The notes below the pieces were generated by a model. It saw only the letters and a list, made by a program, of their open reading frames with translations, did not search any database and was not told the DNA's origin. From positions 1 to 31,556 of the IMG/VR virus record IMGVR_UViG_3300028025_005515: a DNA stretch of 31,556 nt, one strand, 5' to 3'. This document shows positions 8,424 through 26,139 of this stretch, one piece after another. The DNA comes from a virus. The number at the start of each line of letters is the position of its first letter. Within the stretch, counting starts at the first letter, position 1. The translations under genes were made by a program, and so were the position numbers.

Positions 8424-10568
8424 TTACGCACAACTAACACAATTTATATCATATTGTATTTTTACATTTATGATTACAGTTGCATCTATGTAACTAATAG
8501 ATGGATTACATAGTGTACTTATAGTAATTTCTCCAGTATAAGGGTCTATTGTTGCACTTTCAATTTCCGAATAAAGTGCTAATAACGTTTCAACAACACT
8601 AAAAAATACGGAGTCAGATGGAAAGTCACTCAGTGTAGTACTATTGTAGAAACCAATACTATTTACAACACCATTAACTGATACTTCACATACAAAGGTT
8701 GCCGCACTTAATAAACAATTTGTATCCCCTGACGTTAAATCAAAGAATCCTTCCAAGTACATTTGTTGAAGTCCCTTTTTAATCAGTTGTCCGCTATTTT
8801 GGAAATCATCATTACAAAGATTCAAAACTTGATATGATGATATAAGATTATACCCAAACAGAGATATACTTCTAATTTGTGTACATCCATCATCATCAGT
8901 AACACCCAAAGTATAAGTACCAGCAGATAGACCTGAAATTGTTAATCCAGTTTGACCACTTGGAACATTTGAACTCCAATTCAAGGTAAATGGTGGTGTA
9001 CCATCTAAAATAAATGTTTCTATTATTCCATCGTTACCCAAACTTGGTGATGTTGGGTTCAAAATAAAATTAACTGAAGATGAACTTGGTACTAAAATTG
9101 GTAATATTTGTTGACACGAATTTGCATCTATTACAGAAGCTGTATAATTACCTGCAGCTAAACCTGAGAAAGTATAACCTGATAAATTTGTAGTAATTAT
9201 TACACCATCTAATTCGTAAATATAAGGAGCTGTGCCACCACTACTAATATTTAAAGTGATAACACCATTATCTTGGCCACAAGTAGTTGCTGAAACAACA
9301 GATGATAATGTAAATAAAGTTGTATTATTGATTGCAACACCTTGTGTAAAAATACAAGGTCCACCATCTGTAATCTGAATAGTATAACTACCTGATGTCA
9401 AACCATTAAAGTTAACGTTAGTCGTGTTTGTAACCGTTGTTGCGGAATTACCAGTAAAGTCAATTAAAGTGTATGAATATGGTGGTGAACCACCGAAAAG
9501 TGAAATAGATACTGAACCTGAATTATCATTACATAATGAGTTTGTGGTCGAAACAGAAACATTTGTAAACGAATTTGGTGTTAAAACTACCGTGGATGCT
9601 AAAAAATTACATAAACCAGCATCAGTTACACTCACTGAAAAATTACCCGCTGAAATACCTGTAAATGTATGACTTGAGGCAAATGTTATAGTCACACTTC
9701 CATTTGAACCTGAATAATAATATGGTGCTGTACCTCCTGTAGTAACAACTGTTACACTTCCATCTGATGAGTAACATGAGGGATTTGTAACCGTGAACGT
9801 ACCTAATCCAACTGGTGGAACTTCTACAACGACAGCTGATAGATTTTTCGAACAACTAGAACCATCTGTAACTGTAACATTGTAGTTACCAGGTGTTAAT
9901 CCCGTAATTTGTGGTGTTGATTGACCATTAGACCAAGAGTATGTGTAAGGTGGAATACCAGTCAAACCAGTCACATAAAGTGCACCTGAATCAACCGCAC
10001 AACCCGCGTCATTTATAATGTATATTCCAAAATCTAAAGTTGAGGACGATTTTACAATACAACTTTCCGAACGACCAGTACAACCACCCCCATCATCAGC
10101 AACCACATAATATGTACCAGCAGACAATGAGTCAAAAACGAATTCACTTGTAAAACTTTGTCCTGAAGTTATAAATCCACTTGTTAATTCATATAAACTA
10201 AATGTACTTGTAGCATAATAGTAAGTTGTATCGGCAGTCAAACTACCATTATTTTGATTACAAGTTGTATTTTTAATACCTGAGAATGTAACACAAGTAC
10301 CAGTAGATATAAAAACACTCACAGGATAAATTGTACTTGTACCTGAACAACTATCAATCACCTCAAAAACATAAGTACCACCTGATAGACCAGTTTTTGT
10401 ATATCCACTCGTACCACCAGTTAATGGTATATTCCCCAAAGGTGGTGATAACCAAGAGATTGTATAATTTGGTGCACTACCATATATATCAATACTGAAT
10501 GCACCTGATGAGGTATTACTACAATCGCCCGTGATACTATAAACGTTTACATCTAAAAAACAAGACAT
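8424..10568 (-). CDS. Seven-repeat SprB-type virion protein
   Basis: The ATG at 10568 is preferred: it overlaps the upstream stop as TAATG and gives MSCF, like the gene at 1631. A TTG three codons upstream is the alternative start. The 714 residues hold about seven tandem SprB-like repeats of 75-85 residues each (about 1-87, 88-175, 176-251, 252-331, 332-415, 416-496, 497-572). Typical signatures are GGTAPY or GIPPYTYSW in the middle and GLSAGTYTLGVTD or GLTPGNYNVTVTD at the end, with a Cys pair per repeat in most. A different C-terminal domain (about 585-714) resembles the end of the adjacent 1025-residue protein. SprB itself is a host gliding adhesin. Here the repeats lie in a baseplate operon, so the product is probably a tail spike, fibre or baseplate-attached adhesin. 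It has no signal peptide. Confidence 0.75.
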   Translation of the reverse strand: MSCFLDVNVYSITGDCSNTSSGAFSIDIYGSAPNYTISWLSPPLGNIPLTGGTSGYTKTGLSGGTYVFEVIDSCSGTSTIYPVSVFISTGTCVTFSGIKNTTCNQNNGSLTADTTYYYATSTFSLYELTSGFITSGQSFTSEFVFDSLSAGTYYVVADDGGGCTGRSESCIVKSSSTLDFGIYIINDAGCAVDSGALYVTGLTGIPPYTYSWSNGQSTPQITGLTPGNYNVTVTDGSSCSKNLSAVVVEVPPVGLGTFTVTNPSCYSSDGSVTVVTTGGTAPYYYSGSNGSVTITFASSHTFTGISAGNFSVSVTDAGLCNFLASTVVLTPNSFTNVSVSTTNSLCNDNSGSVSISLFGGSPPYSYTLIDFTGNSATTVTNTTNVNFNGLTSGSYTIQITDGGPCIFTQGVAINNTTLFTLSSVVSATTCGQDNGVITLNISSGGTAPYIYELDGVIITTNLSGYTFSGLAAGNYTASVIDANSCQQILPILVPSSSSVNFILNPTSPSLGNDGIIETFILDGTPPFTLNWSSNVPSGQTGLTISGLSAGTYTLGVTDDDGCTQIRSISLFGYNLISSYQVLNLCNDDFQNSGQLIKKGLQQMYLEGFFDLTSGDTNCLLSAATFVCEVSVNGVVNSIGFYNSTTLSDFPSDSVFFSVVETLLALYSEIESATIDPYTGEITISTLCNPSISYIDATVIINVKIQYDINCVSCA
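8853..10568 (-). repeat. Tandem SprB-like protein repeats (about seven units)
   Basis: The units are diverged at residue level and share mainly the PPY/APY turn, the GL(S/T)xGxY strand and the closing V(T/I)D with Cys. They are therefore old duplications rather than recent DNA repeats. The unit at about residues 88-175 has lost the PPY turn, and the last unit (497-572) lacks the early Cys. Confidence 0.75.
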
Positions 10569-13500
10569 TATATACAATAAATTGAGAAGTTTATTCCGAC
10601 ATTTAATTTAAAATTAATATCAGTTTCAGGTATGGTACATATCTGATTATATACTACAATAGTATCATTAGTTGTAAAGTAATAATCATACCCCAATGGT
10701 TTTAACAAATTCAAAGCTGAAACAATTGCTGTGTCCCAATCAGAGGTTGTTGGATAACTCAATGGAATAAAATTATATCCGATTCCATTAAAGAATGGAT
10801 ACGATACTACTTGAACATCATCTATCCTAATATCAACATACCATTGTGTTGTTAGATTATTTAAACTACAATTGTTCGGATCATACCCAACTGATGTTAA
10901 ATATTCATTTAATAATTTTCCTAATACACTACCAAAGTTGGGAAGTTTAGGATCACTTTCCCAAGGATATTTTGGACATTCAGTATTTTGTACTGGACAA
11001 TCGTAAGTATATATGTTATCAATCAATTCACAAGGTCTACACAAAGGTGGTCTCAACGCAATAATTGTTGCATCAGGGGCAGTACCACCCCCAGTTTCAG
11101 GTGTTGGTTGAGTTATTATCTGACAACCTCTTTGTCTTTTCCATTGAAATTTTTGTCTATGGAAAATTGAATTTTCCATTTTTACACCAGTGTTCCAAAT
11201 AGTGGTTGCTGGCACCATTTGTTCAATCAAACGAATCCAATAATCACCCAAACCATTGACGTAATCAATCATCGTTTTATAGGTAAAATTATTGTTTGGA
11301 ATATTCACATCTTGTAACGATTGTAAGTACTTCCAATATATCGATTGTAGTGTTGGATATCCACTTGTTTTTCCATCTGTAGAAAATTGTCTATTTCTTA
11401 CATTGATTGTGTTTTTCCAAAACGTCTGAGCAAATTCAAAAAATGTTTTCTGTTTTGGTTGAGGATTAATAATAGTCCAATCCACACCACCTCTATCAGG
11501 ATAACAAGTTGCAGCATTAGGAAAACATCCATTTGGATTTACGTAGTTCAACCCTTGATTAGGTATTGGATAGTTCAAAGTGGATGACATAAACCACACA
11601 TCATAAACCAACCCCTGAGCAGGATTTAAAAATATTTCAGTATTTTTAACATTTAAAACTAATTTGTCATCGGAAACAAAATATCTCGCGTTTATACCAC
11701 CATCCAAATTAACTCTCGTTAATACTTCATCATCATACCAAGATTTATTATTATCAATCGAAGGTGATAAACTATAACCAAGTTGTAAAAATGGAAATTT
11801 TCTAAATCTATCCAAATATTCCTGACCATATGTATATGGTTTCAAACTTGTTTGATAGTCAGGATTATTACCACTAAATACACTTAAAGTAAAATCGACT
11901 TGTTCTGGTGCCCTGTGTTGTGGAGTTTGTTCAAACCAACCACTACCTATTTGGAAATAATAAGATTCACTATCTGTAATAGTTTTGGGAAATCCTAAGT
12001 TATCTATTGGAAATTCATCAATTGTAATATTAACATCCGTAATTGTAGCAGTTGTAGTGAATCCCGTGTATTGAACACCAAAAATTGTGAATACATTCGA
12101 ACTTTCCAAAGTCGGAGTTTGTTCGACTAATGTACCACCTGAAATTTGTGCGAAATATCTGTTGAATTTATCAATATTTATTCTTTGGTCGGCCAAATAG
12201 ACATATTCATTAAACTCAATTAAAGCATCAGGTGCACCAATCAACCTTAATAAATTTTCAATTGATTTTCTAGTACCTTTAGATTTAAAAAGGAATGCAG
12301 TATTCAAAATTATATTTCTATAAAACTGATAATTTAATTCATCAGGTGTTTGAGACACTGGAACACCAGAAAAGTTTGATTTTTCTTGGTTGGGTTGCCC
12401 AAATACAGAACCTAAAAAATCTGAGTTAGTAATAGGTGAAATGTTAGTTTGCCACCCTAATGTTTGTGCTAAATTTCTTAATAATTGTGATGATATATCA
12501 TTACCAACATTATAATTTACGGAGGTTGTGTAAGCTAAACCATATATGTATTTGTTAATTTCATCGAAACTTCTACCATATAATTGTAAAACTTTATCCA
12601 TCTTTTGTCCGATTGTATCAAACTCTTTAAAAGCTGGTGTGGTAAAAAATCTTGAAATTAAGTTAGTACGATAAGAGTCGAAAGATTCACTTATATCATT
12701 TAGATTTGTCAAATAATCCGTAAAACTTCCTGAAATGATATCTAAATTCCATATACCAAGTATTGGCCAAGTTACAGAATCAGTATCACTAAAATATGTT
12801 CCATCATCACTTTCTTTAGGTACAACGAAAGATGCGGTATAAATTGGTGTTGATGTTCTATTTAATAAAAAGTTTTCAACCTCATCTAAGTTTTCATTAA
12901 AAACTTTATTAACCTCTTGGTCATTTGGTCTAATTATAATATTATCATATACTATTGTTTGACTCGAAAAAGGGTTTCCAACAATAGTAACATTTAACAA
13001 TCCACTTGTTAAACTTTCTGTTGGTATAATTCTTAACAATTGATAACCAACTTCTTGGAAATACAAAGAATATTTTGCATATTCCAAGGTCATATTTCTC
13101 AATTGTGAAACCTGAATTTCTCTTAGTTGTAAGTTTCTAGTTGAGTTAGTCGTGAAGTCAATTCCGAATGGATTTCTTATTTTCGTTAAATCTAAATCAA
13201 ATGTTGTTTCATTATATGTTTGACTATAAACAACGTTGAAGGCCGTAACTCCAGTACTATAATCAACTCTCAATGTTGTTGACTCTAATGCCGCAGGAAA
13301 ATAACTAATGACTTGTGTGATAGCAGCCGACATTCTTTTAGCCATCGAGCCATACATAACAAAATTAGTTACTTGGGTTAGATCAAAATTTGGATATACT
13401 TTGAAGTTTTTTTCAACAATAAGCCTCGATTGATTTACGTCTGATATACCCAATCCATCTAAGTTTATCGGATTCGAGAAAACACCAGTAGAAAAATTTC

Positions 13501-13645
13501 TATTGACCTTTTCTGAACTCGACAAAGTAAAATTAAAATTACCTTGGGTTAATCCTCCACCAGCAACAAGTTGTAATCCAACTAAATTGTCTGAAAAAGT
13601 TCCAAGACCCGATGGTTTTTGTGGTGGACATGTAAATTTAGCCAT
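10568..13645 (-). CDS. Putative baseplate wedge protein, gp7/P2 gpI-like
   Basis: The protein has 1025 residues, close to T4 gp7 (about 1030). Residues 345-480 resemble the P2 gpI tail-protein family: a helix with LLRNLAQTLGW, then FYRNIILNTAFLFKSKGTRKS and LLRLIGAPDALIEFNEYV, with the family's KGT at 456-458. In contractile tails the gpI/gp7 type protein pairs with two copies of the gpJ/gp6 type to form the wedge core, and gp6 is encoded in the same operon. The N-terminal 340 residues are beta-rich. Residues of about 860-900 hold several Cys (CRPCELIDNIYTYDC) and may bind metal or form disulfides. The last 125 residues resemble the C-terminus of the next gene. The start overlaps the stop of the upstream gene (TAATG at 13645). 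The gp7 equivalence is inferred from the gpI-like segment, size and location. Confidence 0.6.
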   Translation of the reverse strand: MAKFTCPPQKPSGLGTFSDNLVGLQLVAGGGLTQGNFNFTLSSSEKVNRNFSTGVFSNPINLDGLGISDVNQSRLIVEKNFKVYPNFDLTQVTNFVMYGSMAKRMSAAITQVISYFPAALESTTLRVDYSTGVTAFNVVYSQTYNETTFDLDLTKIRNPFGIDFTTNSTRNLQLREIQVSQLRNMTLEYAKYSLYFQEVGYQLLRIIPTESLTSGLLNVTIVGNPFSSQTIVYDNIIIRPNDQEVNKVFNENLDEVENFLLNRTSTPIYTASFVVPKESDDGTYFSDTDSVTWPILGIWNLDIISGSFTDYLTNLNDISESFDSYRTNLISRFFTTPAFKEFDTIGQKMDKVLQLYGRSFDEINKYIYGLAYTTSVNYNVGNDISSQLLRNLAQTLGWQTNISPITNSDFLGSVFGQPNQEKSNFSGVPVSQTPDELNYQFYRNIILNTAFLFKSKGTRKSIENLLRLIGAPDALIEFNEYVYLADQRINIDKFNRYFAQISGGTLVEQTPTLESSNVFTIFGVQYTGFTTTATITDVNITIDEFPIDNLGFPKTITDSESYYFQIGSGWFEQTPQHRAPEQVDFTLSVFSGNNPDYQTSLKPYTYGQEYLDRFRKFPFLQLGYSLSPSIDNNKSWYDDEVLTRVNLDGGINARYFVSDDKLVLNVKNTEIFLNPAQGLVYDVWFMSSTLNYPIPNQGLNYVNPNGCFPNAATCYPDRGGVDWTIINPQPKQKTFFEFAQTFWKNTINVRNRQFSTDGKTSGYPTLQSIYWKYLQSLQDVNIPNNNFTYKTMIDYVNGLGDYWIRLIEQMVPATTIWNTGVKMENSIFHRQKFQWKRQRGCQIITQPTPETGGGTAPDATIIALRPPLCRPCELIDNIYTYDCPVQNTECPKYPWESDPKLPNFGSVLGKLLNEYLTSVGYDPNNCSLNNLTTQWYVDIRIDDVQVVSYPFFNGIGYNFIPLSYPTTSDWDTAIVSALNLLKPLGYDYYFTTNDTIVVYNQICTIPETDINFKLNVGINFSIYCI

Positions 13646-15784: not shown

Positions 15785-16629
15785 TATAAACTTGGTGGAT
15801 TTACATATTCATACCATTTCATAGGATTTGTTGTTGTTCCTATTCTAGTATTAGGGTTATTACCATCATATATTTCATATGTTTTGGTTTCGTAATTCAA
15901 GATTACTTTATGATAAAAATACTTACCTGATTCAAATTGATATTTGTTTGGTAAACTACATTGTGGTACATTCATCATTCTAACAAAAACACCCTCTTTT
16001 GCATCAAAAAACTTTATTGACATATAAAACGTGTTTATTGTCAAAAATTGTGGTATATCTAACCAATAAACAAAAAAACCTTCCTTATCACCAACGAAGT
16101 CCAATTTAAATTTTGGTATTTTTATTTTTACTGATGGTATGTAAGGTGAAATTGACGCTGTGGTAGTAAAACCTTGTTGTGTTGGTATTATGATGGTAAA
16201 ATAGTTAGTTTGATTTTTTTCATCATTACTATCATAAAAGTCCAATTTGAAAAAAGAATTGGCAAATGAATTTGCAAAATAATATAACTCTTTTGAGTTA
16301 AACCCTTCAGCTAAATAATTATTTACCCACAAACCTAAATCAGTAGAAGTTGGTAGTGGGCAAGTGGTCGCACTCAGTGTATTTACATTTCCACTATAAA
16401 AATAAAATTCATAATTTACTGATGTTTCCGTATTTGTAGGAGAATATTCATTATGAGCATACCTTCCTACCTCAAAGTCGGTAGCAACTCCAATAACCTC
16501 ACCTAATACTTCATCCTCATAGAGTTCAATACTATCGGTTCTACCTAAGAAATCTTCTGTAATTTCAATAGGTATGTTGATTTCTTGATCCGTTGTTGGT
16601 AATGTTATATAATATCTGTTACTATTCAC
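15784..16629 (-). CDS. Hypothetical structural protein (281 residues), GTG start
   Basis: The start is GTG at 16629, within the end of the upstream gene; the two overlap by eight bases (GTGAATAG). No other early Met exists, so GTG is favoured. The protein is acidic at the N-terminus (EITEDFLGRTDSIELYEDEV) and rich in aromatic residues. Its second half looks like a beta sandwich, with an alternating IPSVKIKIPKFKLDF stretch and the paired FFVYWLDIP and FVRMMNVPQ strands. The late segment FYHKVILNYETKTYEIYDG resembles strands of concanavalin-type jelly rolls, but this is only an impression. It has no transmembrane segment or signal. Close packing and overlap on both sides place it in the baseplate operon. 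I do not recognise the family. Confidence 0.55.
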   Translation of the reverse strand: MNSNRYYITLPTTDQEINIPIEITEDFLGRTDSIELYEDEVLGEVIGVATDFEVGRYAHNEYSPTNTETSVNYEFYFYSGNVNTLSATTCPLPTSTDLGLWVNNYLAEGFNSKELYYFANSFANSFFKLDFYDSNDEKNQTNYFTIIIPTQQGFTTTASISPYIPSVKIKIPKFKLDFVGDKEGFFVYWLDIPQFLTINTFYMSIKFFDAKEGVFVRMMNVPQCSLPNKYQFESGKYFYHKVILNYETKTYEIYDGNNPNTRIGTTTNPMKWYEYVNPPSL

Positions 16630-18463
16630 AATTATCGGTTATTGGTTGAGTAATTATGGTCTGTTCTGTATAATTAGTTCCTTCTGGTATTATTCTAAAA
16701 GTGTAATTATTATAGGGATAATGAACTCCATTTAAAAAAGGAAAGTCATAACCCAATCCGGAAGAATCCACAAACCCATAAGGATACAAATCCCTCCATC
16801 TAAAAGTATTCTGAGATGTTGAGAAGTAAGCGTAATTAGGAACACCAACAATGTTATTAAAATTACCCTCCTCGATGTAATCAGAGAAAACCCTTATTGG
16901 TAAACTATAATGTGGTTTATAATAATATCCTTTTGAATTTTGATTCAAAATAGTATTGTTGTTTATCGAAAAGACGTAAGGATTAAATCTTATTTTGTGG
17001 TATATATCAGTAACAACCCTTTCCCTTTGTTCGAAATTATTCCATTCACAAATTTCTCCATCTAATACATCACCTACTTTTAAAGATTCAACGTAAGTGA
17101 AACCTCTAAATGTTGATGAGTTGAATAACCCTGTATTGTATGTACCTAACGGAAAGTTTGTTTCTGACCTCGGTTCATTATTTGACCACCATGGACTTGG
17201 TGTATCAGTTGAAGGTTCAAGTGGTAAATTGAATTCCCATCCTTGTTTTAAACCATAAAAACCAGTTTGGGGTGGGATTTTTGGAATTCCCATTGTCCAA
17301 CCAAAGTAACCTTTCCAAATAACTGAAAAAAACAACTCAGTTAATGGTCTTCTTTGATTATCTAACAATGTCGATATTTCAATTTTTTTATTAAATGTTA
17401 CTGAGTATGTTTGACCACCTTCTTTTATTGATACTCTTGCTATTCCATCAGGTGTAAATCCACTACTTTCATATTTTTTTACATTCCCAAAAGCATTTTC
17501 TTCAAAACCAGTTTTCACTAATAAACTATCATTAACATCAGTTAAGATTTTATGAGTTCTTACATAATATTCTGAAATTGAATCAGATACATTATTAACA
17601 TTTAAAACTCTTTTTGCAGTACCCTTATTACCAACATTGAATGTGTTGCCAGTATAACCATAGTTTATTAGGTTGAAGATAAACACCTCCGACCCATAAG
17701 TGTAATCTCCCAAGCTATATACTTGAAACAATGTGTTTCCATCATAAGTAAAATTGGAACTTAGTTGAACATATTCACCAACATTTAATCCATGTTTTAT
17801 CGGACATCTAAATCTCAAAACATTTCTACCATTAAAAGTACCATTAGTCACAACAAATGGAATTCCATCACTAACTGTCCAATTTACAGTTTCATAATAA
17901 GGATTGTTTGTATCAGGAATTAAAAATTTTGCAGTATGAGTTTTCGTATAGTCATTGTCATAACCATATGTTACGAAAAAATTCCAATTGTAGGTTGTTG
18001 CACTTTTAGATACAAAATTAACGTGAACTGATGGTGGTGTTGTATTTCCAGAAGGAATGGTATAACCCGATACATTATAATCATTACGTATAAAATCGAA
18101 TTCATTATATAATGGAAATCCACCCCAAGGTAAAGGTGAGTTACCACTTAAGTTTGCACATCTATCAGTAATAACTGATTCGGCATTCGTATAGTACAAA
18201 TTTCTTTCAAATGGTGTATATCTAGTTGTTCCAGTATAAGCATTTTTAAAAACTAACTGAAATTTACAAGAAGGTCTTATTGAGTTTGAATTTTCACGTT
18301 CGTCCTGAAAAACTTGTTGTAAGTTAATATCAGCCGTTCTATCATACTCAATCAATTCTCTTTGAGTACTTTTAAATGGTACTTGTAGAGATAAGTCAGT
18401 ATCAGGTGATGACTTGTACCTTAAAGACCCCAAAACAATTCTTGTATAGTTAATATTTCCCAT
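16622..18463 (-). CDS. Large baseplate-cluster protein of unknown function (613 residues)
   Basis: The gene begins one base after the upstream stop. The N-terminus (NYTRIVLGSLRYKSSPDTDL) is followed by a polar stretch and then mainly beta structure rich in Tyr, Asn, Phe and Gly. An internal segment at about residues 215-290 (NVLRFRCPIKHGLNVGEYVQL, with GHGL-like turns) recalls small beta-barrel modules seen in phage tail proteins, but I cannot name the family. The C-terminal half contains an IFSVIWKGYFGW-type hydrophobic strand region (about 372-385) that is too short and polar for a membrane helix. There are no catalytic motifs. Its place directly after the 1765-residue gene suggests that they assemble together. 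Confidence 0.55.
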   Translation of the reverse strand: MGNINYTRIVLGSLRYKSSPDTDLSLQVPFKSTQRELIEYDRTADINLQQVFQDERENSNSIRPSCKFQLVFKNAYTGTTRYTPFERNLYYTNAESVITDRCANLSGNSPLPWGGFPLYNEFDFIRNDYNVSGYTIPSGNTTPPSVHVNFVSKSATTYNWNFFVTYGYDNDYTKTHTAKFLIPDTNNPYYETVNWTVSDGIPFVVTNGTFNGRNVLRFRCPIKHGLNVGEYVQLSSNFTYDGNTLFQVYSLGDYTYGSEVFIFNLINYGYTGNTFNVGNKGTAKRVLNVNNVSDSISEYYVRTHKILTDVNDSLLVKTGFEENAFGNVKKYESSGFTPDGIARVSIKEGGQTYSVTFNKKIEISTLLDNQRRPLTELFFSVIWKGYFGWTMGIPKIPPQTGFYGLKQGWEFNLPLEPSTDTPSPWWSNNEPRSETNFPLGTYNTGLFNSSTFRGFTYVESLKVGDVLDGEICEWNNFEQRERVVTDIYHKIRFNPYVFSINNNTILNQNSKGYYYKPHYSLPIRVFSDYIEEGNFNNIVGVPNYAYFSTSQNTFRWRDLYPYGFVDSSGLGYDFPFLNGVHYPYNNYTFRIIPEGTNYTEQTIITQPITDNCE

Positions 18464-18464
18464 T

Positions 18465-21400
18465 TTAATCAGTTATTGTATCAAATTTTAACCATTTTTT
18501 ACTGAATCTGTCAAAAGAGGTTTTACCCTTTTTTAACCCAAAATAAAAATGGAAAGGAGCTCCAACCGTGATAGTGTTTTCATCAGGATTATTATGTGTC
18601 CATAAGTTTCTATTTCCACTTTCATCACCACTAATAGGATCTGTTGCAAAAATGTAACCAAGACCACCATTTGTATTATATCTAAAATATCTAGAGTTAG
18701 CATTTAATCTATCCATAGATTGGTATTTTGAACTAAAAAATGTATCATTTGTATTGATTGGACTTGTGTACCAATTATTACCTTGAGAACCAAATATACT
18801 CTCGGCATTACCTCCATTGAAATTAGGTTTTATTTCCCATTGATAAAAAGGAACTTCTTGTGAAAATACTGGAATATTTGAAAAAGCACAAATAGAACCT
18901 AAATTCGCATTACTATTGATTATGTTTCTCTTTGGTGCGATAAAATCTCTTATTTGGGTATTACTCGACCAAAAAATCCCCATCACAACATCATCAGCTG
19001 TTCGACTATTAATAAAAATAGGGTCTTGTCCATTTGGGTCAGTCGGATAATTTATTGGTTCAAATGTTGATATCCCCAATTCAGAACTTATAGATATCAT
19101 TTGTGCATAGTCAGCATCCACTAAATTTTTAAAAGCATCTCTGTCATTTAAGAAAAATCTGAACACAGTACCACCAGCTGAACTTAATAGAATACCTATA
19201 AAACTTAGATTTGTTAATCTACTTATTATCAACAAATTTAATATTTCACTTACATCGGTATAGGATGAATCAATAAGTCGATTAGCTACATACCCATCAA
19301 ATTCATCTGAAAATACAAGTTCTTGTAGATATTGTGACCTAGGTCCTAAGTCCATCATAGTGGTCGGAAATTTTAAATTTCTATCATTACCACCAAAAGG
19401 GATTCCAATAAAAGTACTTGGTGGTGCGCCAATAAACCCTTCAGTTGTTCCTGTCATATATGGACTACTTCTGTAGTAGAAATTGTTAGTTGGGTGGAGA
19501 TATAGTGTCCTCCTACAATAAACACTTGAGGGTCTATTATTCGCGTCAAATATTCTGTCATTTTTAAAGGCAAAGGCATACAATGAACCATTAATCCAAT
19601 TGTTCACAAACAAATGTGACCAAACGTTTCTACACGCACCAAAATTGACCAGTAATCTAGATGTCCATTCATTTACAATTAACAAGTCAGCCGGTAATGA
19701 TAAAATAACTGCAGAAATTAATTTATAACACCCCTTTTCCATAATTTTAGCTCCAGTTACACCATTCGTGTAACATATATTACCATCAGGTCTAATTGCT
19801 ATTTCATCGTTATTGGGGTAGTAACAAAAAAGTGGTACAGAACCCTCACAAGTAAACGATTCAAATACAGGATTTCCGATAGTTTCATCTTCTAATAATG
19901 CAAAAGCATTTCCATCACCACCACCCCCAATAGAAGACGCAGTACCAGTAGTACCTTGAGCTACACCATCATCAGTATATGTGTAAATACTGAACTTCAA
20001 GTTGTTTTGTAAAGTAAAACTATTTCCCTGAACATCAGTCACTGTTGTTGATGTTGGTAATCTATCTGAACGCATTACAATTTTACTTGCATTTGTTGGT
20101 GTTGTTGCTTCAATAAAATTATAGGTATTCGTGTATCTTGGTGAAAAATACCAACCATCAGCAACAAACACAGGAGGATTCGGAATACTAATCGCTGATT
20201 TTTTTTGTCCCATTAAAGAACCACCATCCACAATTTCATTTATGAAGTAACCTCGATTATCCGTGTTGTAATTATTAGGTCGAGGTCCGAAATAATCTTT
20301 AACACAATTTGACGTAACATTGAAAATGGATGGCACACCTCCCGCAAGGGTTGTATCAATTTTAGAGTCAAATTCCACGGTAAAGCCATAGTACATATCG
20401 TTATTATATGGTAACACTTGAAATCCAGCTGTTGATGTAGTTGTCGTGGATGGATTCAATAAAACTCTTAAAACACCATTATTATTGTACCCAATTGGTG
20501 TAGTAGTATATCTTCTTATACTAACGTCATTCGGAGCATCAGTAGGTTTAAATGAATTATTAAAACTTGTTCCTAATTGTGAACTATCCAATGCTGAATA
20601 ATAACTAGGTAAATCAGAACTAAAACCACTAAACTTAGCTAAGCCAGTTGTTGACAAACGAAAGTGGTAAGAGTCATAATACAATGGAATACCAGTTATT
20701 GTATCAATAGTTGTTAAAATATTGACCGATGTGCCAGTTAGTCCAAAGTTATGTCTTACAGCCCTTAAACCATTCACATTCGATGTATTACTTGATGGTT
20801 GAATTGGTATGTTCAATTTATAATTACCAGTTACAACCCTATGTCCCCAACTATTAGTAGGGAATCCAAATAATCTACTTAAATCGAACTGACAAGTTTG
20901 TCTTGTTGAATTGGGGTCAACACCTCTTACTAAAAAAATCAAAACTTGTTCCTCATGTTTCTTATAAAGAGACATTGGGTTATAAACTCTACCAGGTGGA
21001 TAACTCGGATGTGGTGGTGATGGTGCATAGTATGAGAAAGTTAGATTTTCACTAACCTCACGTAAAACAATATCATTATTTAAGAATCGATTGTTCAAAG
21101 ATAAAATATCGTATTGACACTGAGCTGAAAACGTATTATAAGTCATTGCAGTAACAACTTGAAAATACTCAATATCCATAGGAAATTTATGGAAAAAAGT
21201 ATCATCTGATTGTGATAGAAAATAACTAACTTGTAAAGGAGTTGATGAAGTACCATCAGGATTGGCATATCTTACAATCACAGGTGTTGATGGTGAGTTA
21301 TTGAATGTTTCTCCAGTCACACCTGCTGTACCAAATTGGTTTAAATCAACAAAACCATTAATATTAATGTCTTTTGATAATGTAGGGTCTTGGAATGATA

Positions 21401-23762
21401 TAATTTGACCTACAGTGAAATTGGATAGTGATCCCTCTCTACAAGAAACCACCAACATATTATCGAGATGGGACTTAGTATTTGGGTCATTAAGTGGTGT
21501 ATTAAAAGTTACTTTAATTCTATTTACACCACCACCAGGGTTGTTCGGACTGTCATTAAAATATTTGGCTTTAACGTTGAACAAATTAATTCTTTCAGCC
21601 AAAGTTATATTATTAGTAAACAAAACTTTAGGGCAAGGATCAGCATTACCATCCTCACCATTTCCACAAACGTTTTGACCACAAACATCAGTATCTGTTC
21701 CAAAAGAAGAAAATTGAGGTACTCTCGCTTTACCAGATGGTGAATCATTAGTATATGGTCCACCTGCCATCAATGATTGTATAGCACTTCTAAATTGTAC
21801 GTCAACATCGGTAACATCATATTGAGTTGGTAGCATATAAGTGGATATCAAACTATTTCCTCCCACTTCGGCTGTTGAAGCGGCATAACCAGATGTCAAA
21901 GAGTTGTTTGCTGGTGTGTCAGATATCTCACCACCAGGTGAACAAGAACACAACTCACAACTTGGATAAACCAATAATGGTAAATTAATATTTTGAATTT
22001 TTTGATATAATGTTGCAATGTCTCTTGCAATTTGGGCGATTTCTCCAGGGTCAATACAATCAACGGGATCCAAGCTTGCACCCAACCAATTGGCAAATGC
22101 AACTATACCTGCTATAAGATAACAAATAGGTAAAATTACTAGTAAAATAAGTGAAACGATAATTGCAAAAATAAAACCCAACAACATAACTAAAAAAGCA
22201 ACAATATGTATTATTGGAACTAAACCAAATAATATTGGTTTGAAAATAAACATTGCAATAAGTGTTAATAGATATAGTAAATCGAACCTATAATTTGCAT
22301 CGTTATTAGGGAACTTTACATTATCACTTTCACAAGATTCATCCAAATTGTTTTTAATTCCAATAAACTCGTTGGGTAAAAATCCTCTTCTATACTGATC
22401 AATTAATTGTGAAACGGTATATACTTTATTAAATGACATAAAATAAAAAGTATCCTCACAATTAATTGCCGCTTGTGGGTCTACATAGTCGTTCCAATCT
22501 AAACTAAATGAATATGATTTGACTGCGTTCTCAAAAGATGTTGTTGATATTGGATTTACCAAAGGGTCATTATCGAAATTCTCCCATCCATACTCTCGTA
22601 TATTTGGTACCAAAAAATAACCCCTTTTAATATCCTCAGATAAAGTTGGGGATTGATTCCATTTAACTTTAAATCTATATTTACCACGTGTTGGAATACC
22701 AACTTTGGGGTCATCTGAGATTACCCTTTCACCAAATTCATTAGTTGTAACATAATCCAAATTCATTGGTACGTCAACTAACCAAGCTCCATTATCATCA
22801 ATGACTTGACCACCTGAATCTAACGCAAAGGTTTCAAGTACAGGTCTTCCTGTATCGTCATTGAATATTGTTTGTCTTATTGCCAAAATTTCACCAGGAC
22901 CGGCAACTAAATTACATAAATCACCACTTCTTAATTTAGGTCTACAACGTTGAGTTTGATATTGGTCATTTCCATTTGAAAAAATACTCCCCATAAAAAT
23001 TGCAGTCGGGGTTATTAAAACGTTCGCTTCTGACGTAATATCAAAGTCAGTTCTTGTTATACCAATTGTACACACTTCAGGTTGTCCCCATAGTGGTTCA
23101 ACATTAATTGTCCGATTAAGTGAAATAATTTGTGGTAAGGTATTTAAATCCGTAGAACTTCTGAACTCAGTACCCGCAACTTGTGTTTCTGTAGCAACTC
23201 CTAAACGTATCAAATCTTGTGGTGATAATGAGAATTCCCCAATATCTGATAAATCGATATCAACGTGAATTGTTTGTGTTCCAAGAGGAACACCAAAAAT
23301 CATAAAGTCACCACTATCATTTGTTTTGGTTGTGAATTTATAATATTTGTCATAAACCTCAATTACATTAGGGTCTGTTAATACATCTATTCTGTCAGGA
23401 AAAGAACCTGTTGGATTATGTCCACTATGAGAACGGACATATGGTAGTAAATTGTAACGATAACCATCTACATTTGTATCTGTCAGAGATTCATAAGGAT
23501 ATAATTCAGAAATTATCGGGTTACTTTGGTCTTCGTTACTTAATGGTATAAAAATTGATACCTTACAATTAGGTAGACCAAAACCTGAGTTAGCAGTAAT
23601 TCTACCAGCAACAACACCATAATCCGAACATAATCTTGTGTAAATTTGACTTTGTAAAATTTTGAGCGAAAGTATTTCTAAGTACTCGAAATCTTGTTCC
23701 AATAACACATTTACATACTTATCTTTACCAAGTTCGGTTCTTATTCTATATGAGTTAGACAT
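18465..23762 (-). CDS. Giant baseplate-cluster protein with internal membrane-like segment (1765 residues)
   Basis: This is the largest gene in the window. The N-terminal part has a beta-sandwich region, VVAGRITANSGFGLPNCKVSIF (about 50-71), followed later by TNDSGDFMIFGVPLGTQTIHVD. Both resemble carboxypeptidase-regulatory-like (transthyretin-type) domains seen in phage and bacterial surface proteins. Residues 493-561 form an unbroken hydrophobic block that could make about three membrane helices. A Cys-rich motif follows (CELCSC, about 602-607), then a long beta-rich C-terminal region of about 1150 residues, with another Cys pair (CGQNVCGNGEDG). No nuclease, lysozyme or peptidase motif was recognised. 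Position directly after gp6 implies a baseplate or central tail role. The hydrophobic block is unusual for such a part and might act on the host membrane on infection (inference). The first ATG is preceded by a 74-base gap with an AT palindrome. Confidence 0.6.
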   Translation of the reverse strand: MSNSYRIRTELGKDKYVNVLLEQDFEYLEILSLKILQSQIYTRLCSDYGVVAGRITANSGFGLPNCKVSIFIPLSNEDQSNPIISELYPYESLTDTNVDGYRYNLLPYVRSHSGHNPTGSFPDRIDVLTDPNVIEVYDKYYKFTTKTNDSGDFMIFGVPLGTQTIHVDIDLSDIGEFSLSPQDLIRLGVATETQVAGTEFRSSTDLNTLPQIISLNRTINVEPLWGQPEVCTIGITRTDFDITSEANVLITPTAIFMGSIFSNGNDQYQTQRCRPKLRSGDLCNLVAGPGEILAIRQTIFNDDTGRPVLETFALDSGGQVIDDNGAWLVDVPMNLDYVTTNEFGERVISDDPKVGIPTRGKYRFKVKWNQSPTLSEDIKRGYFLVPNIREYGWENFDNDPLVNPISTTSFENAVKSYSFSLDWNDYVDPQAAINCEDTFYFMSFNKVYTVSQLIDQYRRGFLPNEFIGIKNNLDESCESDNVKFPNNDANYRFDLLYLLTLIAMFIFKPILFGLVPIIHIVAFLVMLLGFIFAIIVSLILLVILPICYLIAGIVAFANWLGASLDPVDCIDPGEIAQIARDIATLYQKIQNINLPLLVYPSCELCSCSPGGEISDTPANNSLTSGYAASTAEVGGNSLISTYMLPTQYDVTDVDVQFRSAIQSLMAGGPYTNDSPSGKARVPQFSSFGTDTDVCGQNVCGNGEDGNADPCPKVLFTNNITLAERINLFNVKAKYFNDSPNNPGGGVNRIKVTFNTPLNDPNTKSHLDNMLVVSCREGSLSNFTVGQIISFQDPTLSKDININGFVDLNQFGTAGVTGETFNNSPSTPVIVRYANPDGTSSTPLQVSYFLSQSDDTFFHKFPMDIEYFQVVTAMTYNTFSAQCQYDILSLNNRFLNNDIVLREVSENLTFSYYAPSPPHPSYPPGRVYNPMSLYKKHEEQVLIFLVRGVDPNSTRQTCQFDLSRLFGFPTNSWGHRVVTGNYKLNIPIQPSSNTSNVNGLRAVRHNFGLTGTSVNILTTIDTITGIPLYYDSYHFRLSTTGLAKFSGFSSDLPSYYSALDSSQLGTSFNNSFKPTDAPNDVSIRRYTTTPIGYNNNGVLRVLLNPSTTTTSTAGFQVLPYNNDMYYGFTVEFDSKIDTTLAGGVPSIFNVTSNCVKDYFGPRPNNYNTDNRGYFINEIVDGGSLMGQKKSAISIPNPPVFVADGWYFSPRYTNTYNFIEATTPTNASKIVMRSDRLPTSTTVTDVQGNSFTLQNNLKFSIYTYTDDGVAQGTTGTASSIGGGGDGNAFALLEDETIGNPVFESFTCEGSVPLFCYYPNNDEIAIRPDGNICYTNGVTGAKIMEKGCYKLISAVILSLPADLLIVNEWTSRLLVNFGACRNVWSHLFVNNWINGSLYAFAFKNDRIFDANNRPSSVYCRRTLYLHPTNNFYYRSSPYMTGTTEGFIGAPPSTFIGIPFGGNDRNLKFPTTMMDLGPRSQYLQELVFSDEFDGYVANRLIDSSYTDVSEILNLLIISRLTNLSFIGILLSSAGGTVFRFFLNDRDAFKNLVDADYAQMISISSELGISTFEPINYPTDPNGQDPIFINSRTADDVVMGIFWSSNTQIRDFIAPKRNIINSNANLGSICAFSNIPVFSQEVPFYQWEIKPNFNGGNAESIFGSQGNNWYTSPINTNDTFFSSKYQSMDRLNANSRYFRYNTNGGLGYIFATDPISGDESGNRNLWTHNNPDENTITVGAPFHFYFGLKKGKTSFDRFSKKWLKFDTITD
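22080..22286 (-). other. Hydrophobic block, about three predicted membrane helices
   Basis: The block codes for residues 493-561 of the 1765-residue protein. It is made of Leu, Ile, Phe, Val and Ala with no acidic residue and a single Lys near residue 508. Pro515 and Pro545 break it into helix-sized pieces. It ends at GIVAFANWLG before a polar stretch (DPVDCIDPGE). Confidence 0.75.
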
Positions 23763-23836: not shown

Positions 23837-25675
23837 TTAGGAGAAATTGACCGTACTTAAATTCTTCACTCTAACGTTAATATCTCTATTTGGATATCTA
23901 ACTTGATAGGTTTGACTTGGTTCTGCAAAGATTGTGTCATCAATCAACTCAATTTGTTTTGTTTCTGAATCGACATATCTTTGAGAAGTTTGAGACGAAG
24001 AATATTCACCACCAACTTTATTGAAAATTGAAATGCTTGAAACTGTAATAACACCATTTTGTGATTGTAACAATCTTCTCAACTCTGAAACATTTACATT
24101 TTCACCCAAATTTCTATTTGTTGGTGCCATAAAGTTAGTTACAGTATCAACAATTTGTGTAATTACAGCACCTTGGTTTTGACTATTATCCAATACAACA
24201 TCAATGTTATATGCTAAGTCAATTACATTGGCAGTTTCTACTGATATATAATCATTTATCATTCGATAGTTTGATAAGTAATTTGCTACATTGTTTTTGA
24301 GTGTGTTTGATACAACTTCAGTCAATCGTCCTGATTCATCATAGGACAACATTTTAATTTTGATTTTGTTGTTTTCTTCCGTGATAGTCACTTTTGCTGG
24401 TGCACCAAATTGTGATGGCATCGTTCTAATAATTGATTCGTAATCATTTATTGTAACGGCACGATATTGAGCTGAGAAATTAAATGCTACTAAATTTCTT
24501 ACTTCTTCAGTAGTTGGTGCTTGTGCTCCACCAATTGCCGCAGTAATATTAGTACATGCTAAAGAGTTTATAACACTTGTATTTACGGATACAGAAGGAC
24601 CATTAACGTTAAAATTAATTGTACCGATTTGATTTATTACATTTACACCTAAATTACTACCAGTTCCACCACCTATTCTATACTGAACAAATAATGTGGA
24701 ATTAGCTTTTAAGGTACTACCTAAAGAAAAATTGTTTGAGTACTTATACAAATTAAGTTCGAATCCATTTCTTGCAAATTCTCTCAGTTGTTCATCAGCA
24801 GATTGACTACCACCACCAAATGTTAATTTACAGAAACCTTCAGGTGTAAATTCACTAATGAATTTTGTATTAGTTTGGATGTATTTACCAACCTTAATAC
24901 CAGGATTATCTGAAACTTTTGTTGGGTCTTCAATGAACACTCTATCTTCTACCAATGCTTTAACTTCATACCATCTATTGTCAGTACCTAAAAATTCTTC
25001 AACTGATGGTACGTTAGCATATTGTGTACCATCTTTTAATAAAACACTTGTTATCCCCAAAACATTTCTTTCAGGTAAAAACAATTCAAAAAATGGTCTT
25101 ATATCATTTGGAGTTACAACTCGTTTAAAAACTTTAGTAGTACCGTTAACAACAGTTTCTCTTTTTACAATAGTATAATTTAATAATCTGTTGTTTGAGT
25201 CAAAGTTAGGTATTTTTAATCTATTGGGTACGCCATCAGCACTTGTTGGTGAAGCAAAATCAATATCAGTTATAGTTTCAAATACTTGACCAGCACCATT
25301 TACTTGTGATCCTCTCCTTAATATGCCACAATATCTTAAATCTTCAGCATCACCATAAACTGGTACAACTATTGAAAAGTCAACTAACGCAACTGATGGT
25401 CTTTGACCTGGTACTTTAAGACCATAAGTTCTTGCAATGTTAAAAACTGAAGAACGTTGTTGAGCATATTGTAAAACTGTTTCTTGGATACTTCTATCAA
25501 TATTGTATTGAAGATTATCTGAAACAGCAGCATTTAAGTCCAACAAAGCAGAAAATACTGAAGCATCATTGAAATTATCAATTAAGTCAGGATAATAAGT
25601 TCGAGTAAAATTAATTAACTCCGTTCTTATTGATTGGAAATCTCTTGTTGTATATGATATTTTCTTGTTGGCCAT
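23837..25675 (-). CDS. gp6: Baseplate wedge protein gp6-like (baseplate J family)
   Basis: The protein has 612 residues (T4 gp6 has about 660). The N-terminus, SYTTRDFQSIRTELINFTRTYYPDLIDNFNDASVFSALLDLNAAV (in pieces: YTTRDFQSIR, YYPDLIDNF, LLDLNA), then IDRSIQETVLQYAQQRSSVFNIARTYG, is the familiar gp6/baseplate J opening. Central residues include the GGGTGSNLGVNVI turn, and the region around NDYESIIRTMPSQFGAPAKVTI is the typical second domain. In T4, two gp6 copies join gp7 in the wedge and form the inner baseplate ring that controls sheath contraction. It starts five bases after gp25, a classic neighbour in contractile-tail clusters. The assignment is firm. There is no Shine-Dalgarno site before the ATG. 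Confidence 0.92.
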   Translation of the reverse strand: MANKKISYTTRDFQSIRTELINFTRTYYPDLIDNFNDASVFSALLDLNAAVSDNLQYNIDRSIQETVLQYAQQRSSVFNIARTYGLKVPGQRPSVALVDFSIVVPVYGDAEDLRYCGILRRGSQVNGAGQVFETITDIDFASPTSADGVPNRLKIPNFDSNNRLLNYTIVKRETVVNGTTKVFKRVVTPNDIRPFFELFLPERNVLGITSVLLKDGTQYANVPSVEEFLGTDNRWYEVKALVEDRVFIEDPTKVSDNPGIKVGKYIQTNTKFISEFTPEGFCKLTFGGGSQSADEQLREFARNGFELNLYKYSNNFSLGSTLKANSTLFVQYRIGGGTGSNLGVNVINQIGTINFNVNGPSVSVNTSVINSLACTNITAAIGGAQAPTTEEVRNLVAFNFSAQYRAVTINDYESIIRTMPSQFGAPAKVTITEENNKIKIKMLSYDESGRLTEVVSNTLKNNVANYLSNYRMINDYISVETANVIDLAYNIDVVLDNSQNQGAVITQIVDTVTNFMAPTNRNLGENVNVSELRRLLQSQNGVITVSSISIFNKVGGEYSSSQTSQRYVDSETKQIELIDDTIFAEPSQTYQVRYPNRDINVRVKNLSTVNFS

Positions 25676-25680
25676 AGTTG

Positions 25681-26139
25681 TTATATATTAATAATCACAA
25701 AATCACTACTATTAAATGCAGTATCTGTTATTATGTAGTCAATTTTTATTTTTGCTGTGTGTTCTAATTGTCCAATATTTGGTACTTTGAATTCCCTTTG
25801 ATTGTCTTCATTCACATAATACCCTTTGTCCTCATCACCCTCTGAACCTGGTGTTATTGTTATTTTTGTTATAGTTATACCAGGTATATATTCACCCACT
25901 GAATCTCTTATTTCAGATTCTAAATCTGAAAATGTCGGACCATCTAATGGTTCGAATAAGTATTCATATAATCTTGTACCAAAATCAGGTAAATAATATC
26001 TCGTACCTTTTCTTGTTAAAAGTAGATGTACAAGGTTACTTCTGATTTCATCATCAGTAGTTTGTGACAAACTTAAATAGTTTCCCTCGTATGAATCCCT
26101 GAATGGGAAATTTATTCCATAAGTTATTCCATTAGCCAT
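25681..26139 (-). CDS. gp25: Baseplate wedge protein gp25-like
   Basis: The protein has 152 residues (T4 gp25 has 132). The core motif is present: RSNLVHLLLTRKGTRYYLPDFGTRLYEYLFEP (in pieces: NLVHLLLTRKGTR, PDFGTRLYEYLFEP), the hallmark of the gp25/GpW lysozyme-like family found in contractile tails and type VI secretion (TssE). The family name refers to fold similarity only; T4 gp25 is a structural protein. In T4 it links the wedge core to the sheath and acts with gp6 and gp53. About 20 extra residues with Glu and Asp (GSEGDEDKGYYVNEDNQRE) form a polar insertion near the C-terminal third. It is the first gene of the structural operon on this strand. The start is the first ATG after a terminator-containing gap. 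Confidence 0.92.
   Translation of the reverse strand: MANGITYGINFPFRDSYEGNYLSLSQTTDDEIRSNLVHLLLTRKGTRYYLPDFGTRLYEYLFEPLDGPTFSDLESEIRDSVGEYIPGITITKITITPGSEGDEDKGYYVNEDNQREFKVPNIGQLEHTAKIKIDYIITDTAFNSSDFVIINI

Follow-up and report, generated by a model that had tools for sequence, protein, structure and literature searches.

Gene neighbourhood of G

The window, that is the whole stretch of 31,556 nucleotides analysed here (IMG/VR virus record IMGVR_UViG_3300028025_005515), carries on its minus strand a baseplate gene cluster that includes a giant protein, hereafter G, encoded between a gp6-like baseplate wedge protein and p613 (Table 1). The order RNR-gp25-gp6-G-p613-p281-p391-p302-p1025 is kept in the clade to which the window belongs, and the run gp25-gp6-G-p613 recurs in rumen-type and other contigs of up to 412 kb. 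In one relative, L039, the gene for the RNR large subunit appears as two ORFs (527 and 413 amino acids), possibly because of an inserted element or a frameshift. The p1025 protein is about 25% identical to a 1336-residue protein of Microcystis phage Mel-JY01 whose gene lies three genes beyond gp6; a gp7-like core suspected in p1025 by eye was not supported by hhalign.

Table 1. Features of G and of its gene neighbourhood (nucleotide positions in the window; KD, Kyte-Doolittle mean)
Feature	Position	Strand	Basis
gp25-like baseplate wedge protein	25681..26139	-	Pfam GPW_gp25, E 3e-10
gp6-like baseplate wedge protein	23837..25675	-	PHROG 219, E 1.4e-21; Baseplate_J
G, giant protein (1765 aa) in the baseplate gene cluster	18465..23762	-	ORF
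N-terminal conserved region of G, residues 1-460	22383..23762	-	consensus share mostly 0.75-0.9 per column
C477, invariant Cys before the block	22332..22334	-	63 homologues
Hydrophobic block, residues 493-561 of G	22080..22286	-	KD peak 3.27; kept in 233/236 distinct homologues
Predicted continuous alpha-helix, residues 495-559	22086..22280	-	AlphaFold2 model, 63 homologues
Predicted first helix with conserved polar/small stripe, residues 495-530 (K508, H519 here)	22173..22280	-	100-degree periodicity, three clades
C602-E-L-C605-S-C607, Cys motif after the block	21942..21959	-	C602, C605 invariant; C607 at least 90% (63 homologues)
Variable middle region, about residues 620-1370, many indels	19653..21905	-	alignment, profile matches
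C-terminal conserved region, about residues 1374-1765, NxW[IV]NGxLYAF and FYFGLKxGKT	18468..19643	-	profile matches (distant clades, block-less L144)
p613, constant downstream neighbour of G	16622..18463	-	synteny
p1025, conserved structural-cluster protein	10568..13645	-	conserved gene order
SprB-repeat protein (p717), end of the baseplate cluster	8424..10577	-	Pfam SprB, E 8e-19

SprB repeats typically occur in surface proteins of Bacteroidota. Their presence in p717, the listed frame of which begins at TTG with an ATG three codons further in, and the origin of one G homologue from a Bacteroidota bin point to a probable Bacteroidota host for the window's clade; some phages of the group, at least, probably infect Bacteroidota. 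Three loci found in one genome scan, L144, L145 and L146, carry G homologues in bins labelled Wolfebacteria, Mycoplasmatota and Bacteroidota, and the first two labels may be binning errors. A brief pattern scan for a gene of ribosomal protein S21, the trait sought as a link to freshwater Bacteroidetes phages already described (PMC9723584), was negative in a close relative of 194 kb.

This relative has a T4-like tail cluster comprising sheath, tube, hub and a helical protein of 603 amino acids, which lies between the hub-like gene and large downstream genes and, by its size and position, is taken as the tape measure protein (TMP). The sheath protein is 1197 residues long (L323:3566-7159), with the sheath-domain match confined to its last third, and a protein of 2450 residues (L322:3805-11157) has a tail-protein match near residues 2017-2128. 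At about 119-146 kb (L325-L326), a run of genes whose first residues appear by eye to be glycosyltransferase- and nucleotide-sugar-dehydrogenase-like suggests phage-encoded glycan synthesis.

The G family and its domain architecture

At least 595 stretches homologous to G were confirmed in IMG/VR with one query, and the family was extended by further queries with divergent members and by the genome scan. It comprises three divergent clades, A, B and C, with contigs of up to 412 kb; the window's G belongs to clade A. All 14 large contigs searched contain G, as one ORF each by the listed reading frames. The G family is large, widespread and so far without a name, and is carried by many uncultured large phages. 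No significant match was found in Pfam, PHROGs, PDB sequences or annotated phage genomes, and profiles of both halves of G gave nothing at E<=1 in a PDB sequence search. Clearly homologous, at 38% identity, is an uncharacterised protein from Myoviridae sp. ctPuP5 with a BFVD model. The nearest annotated phages by gp6, Flavobacterium phage immuto and Mel-JY01, have no detectable G, and a TM-like protein was not found directly after their gp6 genes.

Outside the block, G is predicted to be strand-rich. The N-terminal region weakly resembles carboxypeptidase-regulatory or prealbumin-like domains: Pfam CarboxypepD_reg (PF13620) matched five homologues at E 0.0018-0.27, all under the cut-off, and Foldseek with the low-confidence N-terminal model (mean pLDDT 57) returned PA1324 with probability 0.99 at an E value of 3e-3. 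The only PDB match below 0.001 for this model was an S-layer protein (E 2.9e-4); the others were weak and included prealbumin/pilin-like proteins and dioxygenases. The C-terminal region is common to distant clades at modest profile scores, and its structure model (mean pLDDT 66.6) gave no PDB match at E<=0.001 in Foldseek.

Three homologues of about 750 amino acids (L144, L146 and L229) have no block. L144 retains the N-terminal region and part of the C-terminal region, and L229 ends at the contig end. These proteins suggest that the block, together with the Cys motif and the variable region, was inserted between the conserved N- and C-terminal parts of G. With such an insertion the two flanks would more readily lie on the same side of a membrane, but in many clade B members just one hydrophobic segment is clear. 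A separate TM gene was looked for in block-less relatives: there is none among the genes beside G in L307, nor was a TM-like stretch present in the three other main forward-strand ORFs of L144. L146 has more distant ORFs with KD up to 2.08, and no relatives were found with L146 as the query.

A conserved hydrophobic block

The initial annotation had placed a hydrophobic block at residues 493-561 of G, and the position on the minus strand was reproduced exactly. The block is hydrophobic over 65-70 residues, with charged side chains almost absent over about 65 residues and a peak 19-residue Kyte-Doolittle mean (KD) of 3.27. A KD of 1.6 was reached by none of the 15 other window ORFs checked, a set that left out the two RNR subunits and the helicase. 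The estimate of about three membrane helices held in part: greedy non-overlapping 19-residue KD segments number three, whereas under a biological-scale sum, taken without the position weighting of the published predictor, one segment is very strong (526-544, -6.0) and another borderline (495-513, +0.8). Two to three helices is therefore a fair, if provisional, description.

In the AlphaFold2 model the block has a pLDDT of about 72-88, and the values fall below 50 before it and after about residue 590 (whole-model mean 57). In this model, of low overall confidence, the block is flanked by low-confidence linkers and does not appear to pack into beta domains. AlphaFold commonly renders isolated hydrophobic segments as one continuous helix, so the continuous helix of 65 residues is weak evidence. 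The soluble-looking beta domains described on either side agree with strands predicted on both sides of the block, the N-terminal model being of low confidence. The Cys motif reported after the block is real, as C477, C602 and C605 never vary among 63 homologues and C607 is nearly invariant. In L230 and related clade C loci the stretch after the block is exceptionally Cys-rich, and the family has up to 23 Cys per 150 residues; metal binding or disulfides are suggested.

Conservation among homologues, a check proposed in the initial annotation, was examined in 236 distinct G homologues of at least 600 amino acids. The block reaches a KD of at least 1.6 at the same site (residues 421 to about 660) in 233 of them and of at least 2.0 in 217, and it is the most hydrophobic stretch of the whole protein in 233. 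A second hydrophobic stretch is present in most of the window's clade. KD never reached 2.0 in seven neighbour families (gp25, gp6, p613, p281, p391, p302 and p1025), which rules out a simple composition effect. The consensus share per column is 0.24-0.5 in the block, compared with mostly 0.75-0.9 over the N-terminal region. When the window was set against two close relatives, 12 of 12 and 20 of 22 substitutions in the block stayed hydrophobic where a fraction of 0.60 was expected (p about 0.002 each, for two comparisons that are not independent). The hydrophobicity of the block is maintained while its sequence diverges. A frameshift or assembly error is ruled out, since the frame is intact in the homologues and the changes keep hydrophobicity. 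We are highly confident that the block is a membrane-type module that is real and under selection, within a protein at the core of the baseplate gene cluster. The membrane character of the block is predicted by hydropathy only, and we judge it to be a genuine bilayer-interacting module that would insert into a membrane.

Polar stripe of the first helix

An invariant P-x-N precedes the block shortly in all clades, and positions of the stripe were counted gap-free from its Pro. First-pass anchoring on this motif dropped 57 sequences, several of them from clade A; the periodicity test used a wider search window. The stripe spans the first ~35 residues with an exactly alpha-helical period, and in each of the three clades the signal is strongest at 100 degrees. 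Power at 95-105 degrees was significant in clades A (p=0.0004), B (0.0002) and C (0.0002) by position permutation after 80% clustering, p-values that take alignment positions as exchangeable among related sequences. The best heptad phases of the three clades overlap.

In clade C the stripe reads C16, T20, G23, G27, N30, N34, N37, T41 and C44, with N30 and C16 at 100% and the other positions mostly I, L, V or F. Clade B has C16 (100%), K or T20 and N30 (100%), and the anchorable subset of clade A has H34 (92%) and T, R or K at 23. Seam residues are C, T, G, N, H or K on a remainder of mostly I, L, V or F, and in the window's own copy of G the clearly polar ones are only K508 and H519. The first helix is, as far as these residues predict, inside-out, with a polar/small seam and an otherwise hydrophobic surface, the reverse of a soluble coiled coil. 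This arrangement would fit packing in a membrane helix bundle better than a solvent-exposed coiled coil.

Comparison with known systems

A search with hhalign of G profiles against T4 gp5-gp12, gp25, gp53 and wac gave no significant match; this test is insensitive, because the window's own gp6 family scored just 7.9% against T4 gp6. The initial annotation considered membrane-like helices unusual in a baseplate protein on the ground that such proteins are soluble. A strongly conserved block of membrane type in a contractile-tail baseplate-cluster protein was indeed found, but the premise is not strictly true: T4 gp7 has a TM-like helix (residues 886-904, KD 2.07), for which GenBank lists a predicted integral membrane domain, and one TM-like stretch is present in T4 gp29 (KD 2.2). 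Like G, gp7 is encoded right after gp6; it is about 1000 amino acids long. Unlike G it has a single helix, the block of G being two to three times longer, and a sequence relation between the two was not detected in the low-sensitivity test.

TMP-like homologues have KD maxima of 0.74-1.45 in clades A and C and of up to 2.05 in clade B, compared with 2.2 in T4 gp29. The idea that G makes up for TM stretches that the TMP has lost agrees with clades A and C and fails in clade B, where the block is still present in G; G is therefore not a simple replacement of TMP function. TMPs are mostly alpha-helical, set tail length and are encoded between the tube and hub genes. G itself was ruled out as a TMP because it is strand-rich outside the block, adjoins gp6 and, in the 194-kb relative, coexists with a separate helical protein of TMP size. 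In pore-forming colicins, a hydrophobic helical hairpin is masked within a soluble protein until membrane contact; its likeness to the block is a mechanical analogy only, colicins being free toxins.

The closest analogues of G may be the TM anchors of contractile injection systems (CIS) and the TM regions of TMPs. In Anabaena, the tail-fibre-like protein Cis13 has a predicted TM helix and anchors the CIS in thylakoids (PMC8894136). Compared by description, it shares with G a predicted membrane helix in a protein of a contractile machine, and differs in belonging to a host-encoded CIS rather than a phage and in being a small protein with its TM helix in a C-terminal helical extension. In Streptomyces coelicolor, the TM protein CisA is encoded directly downstream of the CIS baseplate genes and is required for firing, and the particles are described without components that bind the host membrane directly (PMC12237407). 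CisA resembles G, again by description, as a TM-type protein encoded with baseplate genes, and differs from it in being bitopic and of another architecture. As with Cis13 and CisA, a TM helix of G, predicted by hydropathy, is encoded with baseplate genes, here next to gp25 and gp6. The TM regions of TMPs (T4 gp29, diffocin CD1366, phiCD508 gp59) have been suggested to let DNA or ions through by opening the inner membrane (PMC10996793, PMC11948020); they are hydrophobic helices in a tail protein, like the block, but TMPs are alpha-helical and lie in the tube lumen, whereas G is strand-rich and encoded elsewhere in the genome.

Discussion

The best explanation of these data is that a broad group of uncultured, large contractile-tailed phages encodes G in the baseplate gene cluster as a core component. 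We tentatively propose that its module engages a host membrane during infection; for this reading we infer that the block inserts into a membrane, that G oligomerises and belongs to the virion, and also when and in which membrane the module acts. The module would begin with a helix, about 25-35 residues long, that bears the polar/small seam and would, in most of the window's clade, also include the second hydrophobic stretch. Several G subunits would join their helices via the polar seam, and the hydrophobic sides would face lipid or stay masked before use. On opening of the baseplate and contraction of the sheath, the module would engage a host membrane, where it would anchor the tail or help to open the cell membrane.

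This proposal is consistent with a block kept in 233 of 236 homologues, and the maximum of the protein in 233, next to neighbour families all below KD 2; with hydrophobicity preserved despite sequence divergence; with the 100-degree seam of overlapping heptad phase in three clades; and with the constant order gp25-gp6-G-p613. The N- and C-terminal parts of block-less L144 agree with an inserted module, the 194-kb relative has a T4-like tail cluster, and the TMP-like homologues of the window's clade and the next have no TM-like stretches, unlike T4 gp29. On the other hand, G may be absent from the virion, and the clade B TMP-like proteins reach a KD of 2.05 although G keeps its block there. Among baseplate proteins, T4 gp7 provides a precedent for a TM-like helix, and the window's own copy of G has a weak seam. 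Improbable, in our opinion, is the further step in which contraction would bring helices of several G subunits together in the host cell membrane as a polar-lined bundle or channel, and DNA would cross, in this phage group, by way of a baseplate-encoded protein and not of the TMP.

So hydrophobic a block might also insert into the host membrane during synthesis, which would favour a role in assembly. It is conceivable, if somewhat unlikely, that G is a membrane-anchored assembly platform: the block would enter the inner membrane as the protein is made, baseplates would be built or held there, and G may be missing from the released virion. Very high hydrophobicity favours co-translational membrane insertion, as a KD of 3.27 would in this case. 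We know of no membrane-bound baseplate assembly in free phages, however, and the huge size and fast-changing middle region of G are as expected of surface-exposed virion parts. Arguing for a platform are CisA, a membrane protein needed for the firing of particles described as lacking direct membrane binders (PMC12237407), and the cyanobacterial tail-fibre-like protein whose TM helix anchors the CIS in thylakoids (PMC8894136).

We consider it unlikely that the block is a purely structural buried core, such as a long hydrophobic trimer helix wrapped by baseplate domains, that never meets a membrane. The TM-like helix of the baseplate protein gp7 and the single 65-residue helix of the AlphaFold2 model are compatible with such a core, but ~65 nearly uncharged residues with a one-sided polar stripe are the reverse of a soluble coiled coil, and the flanks modelled, at low whole-model confidence, are linkers rather than packed beta domains. 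It is very improbable that G is no part of the tail but some other late membrane protein whose gene accompanies the baseplate operon: its virion membership is putative and it has no database annotation, but synteny between gp6 and p613 is strict over divergent clades, a signal peptide is not evident by eye, and the N-terminal domains are beta-rich and adhesin-like.

The DNA route through the inner membrane is unsettled in contractile-tailed phages, and the usual candidate is the TMP. Host-membrane engagement by G, the reading that we prefer, places next to this candidate a baseplate-cluster family with a membrane-type helix and a conserved polar face, and suggests that part of the injection machine of these phages works inside a lipid membrane. 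Testable targets are the segment 495-530, K508 and H519 in the window, and N30 and C16 of the motif in relatives, and the three natural block-less relatives serve as a comparison for the block. If true, this reading would also connect the baseplates of phages with the anchors that fix bacterial contractile injection systems in membranes.
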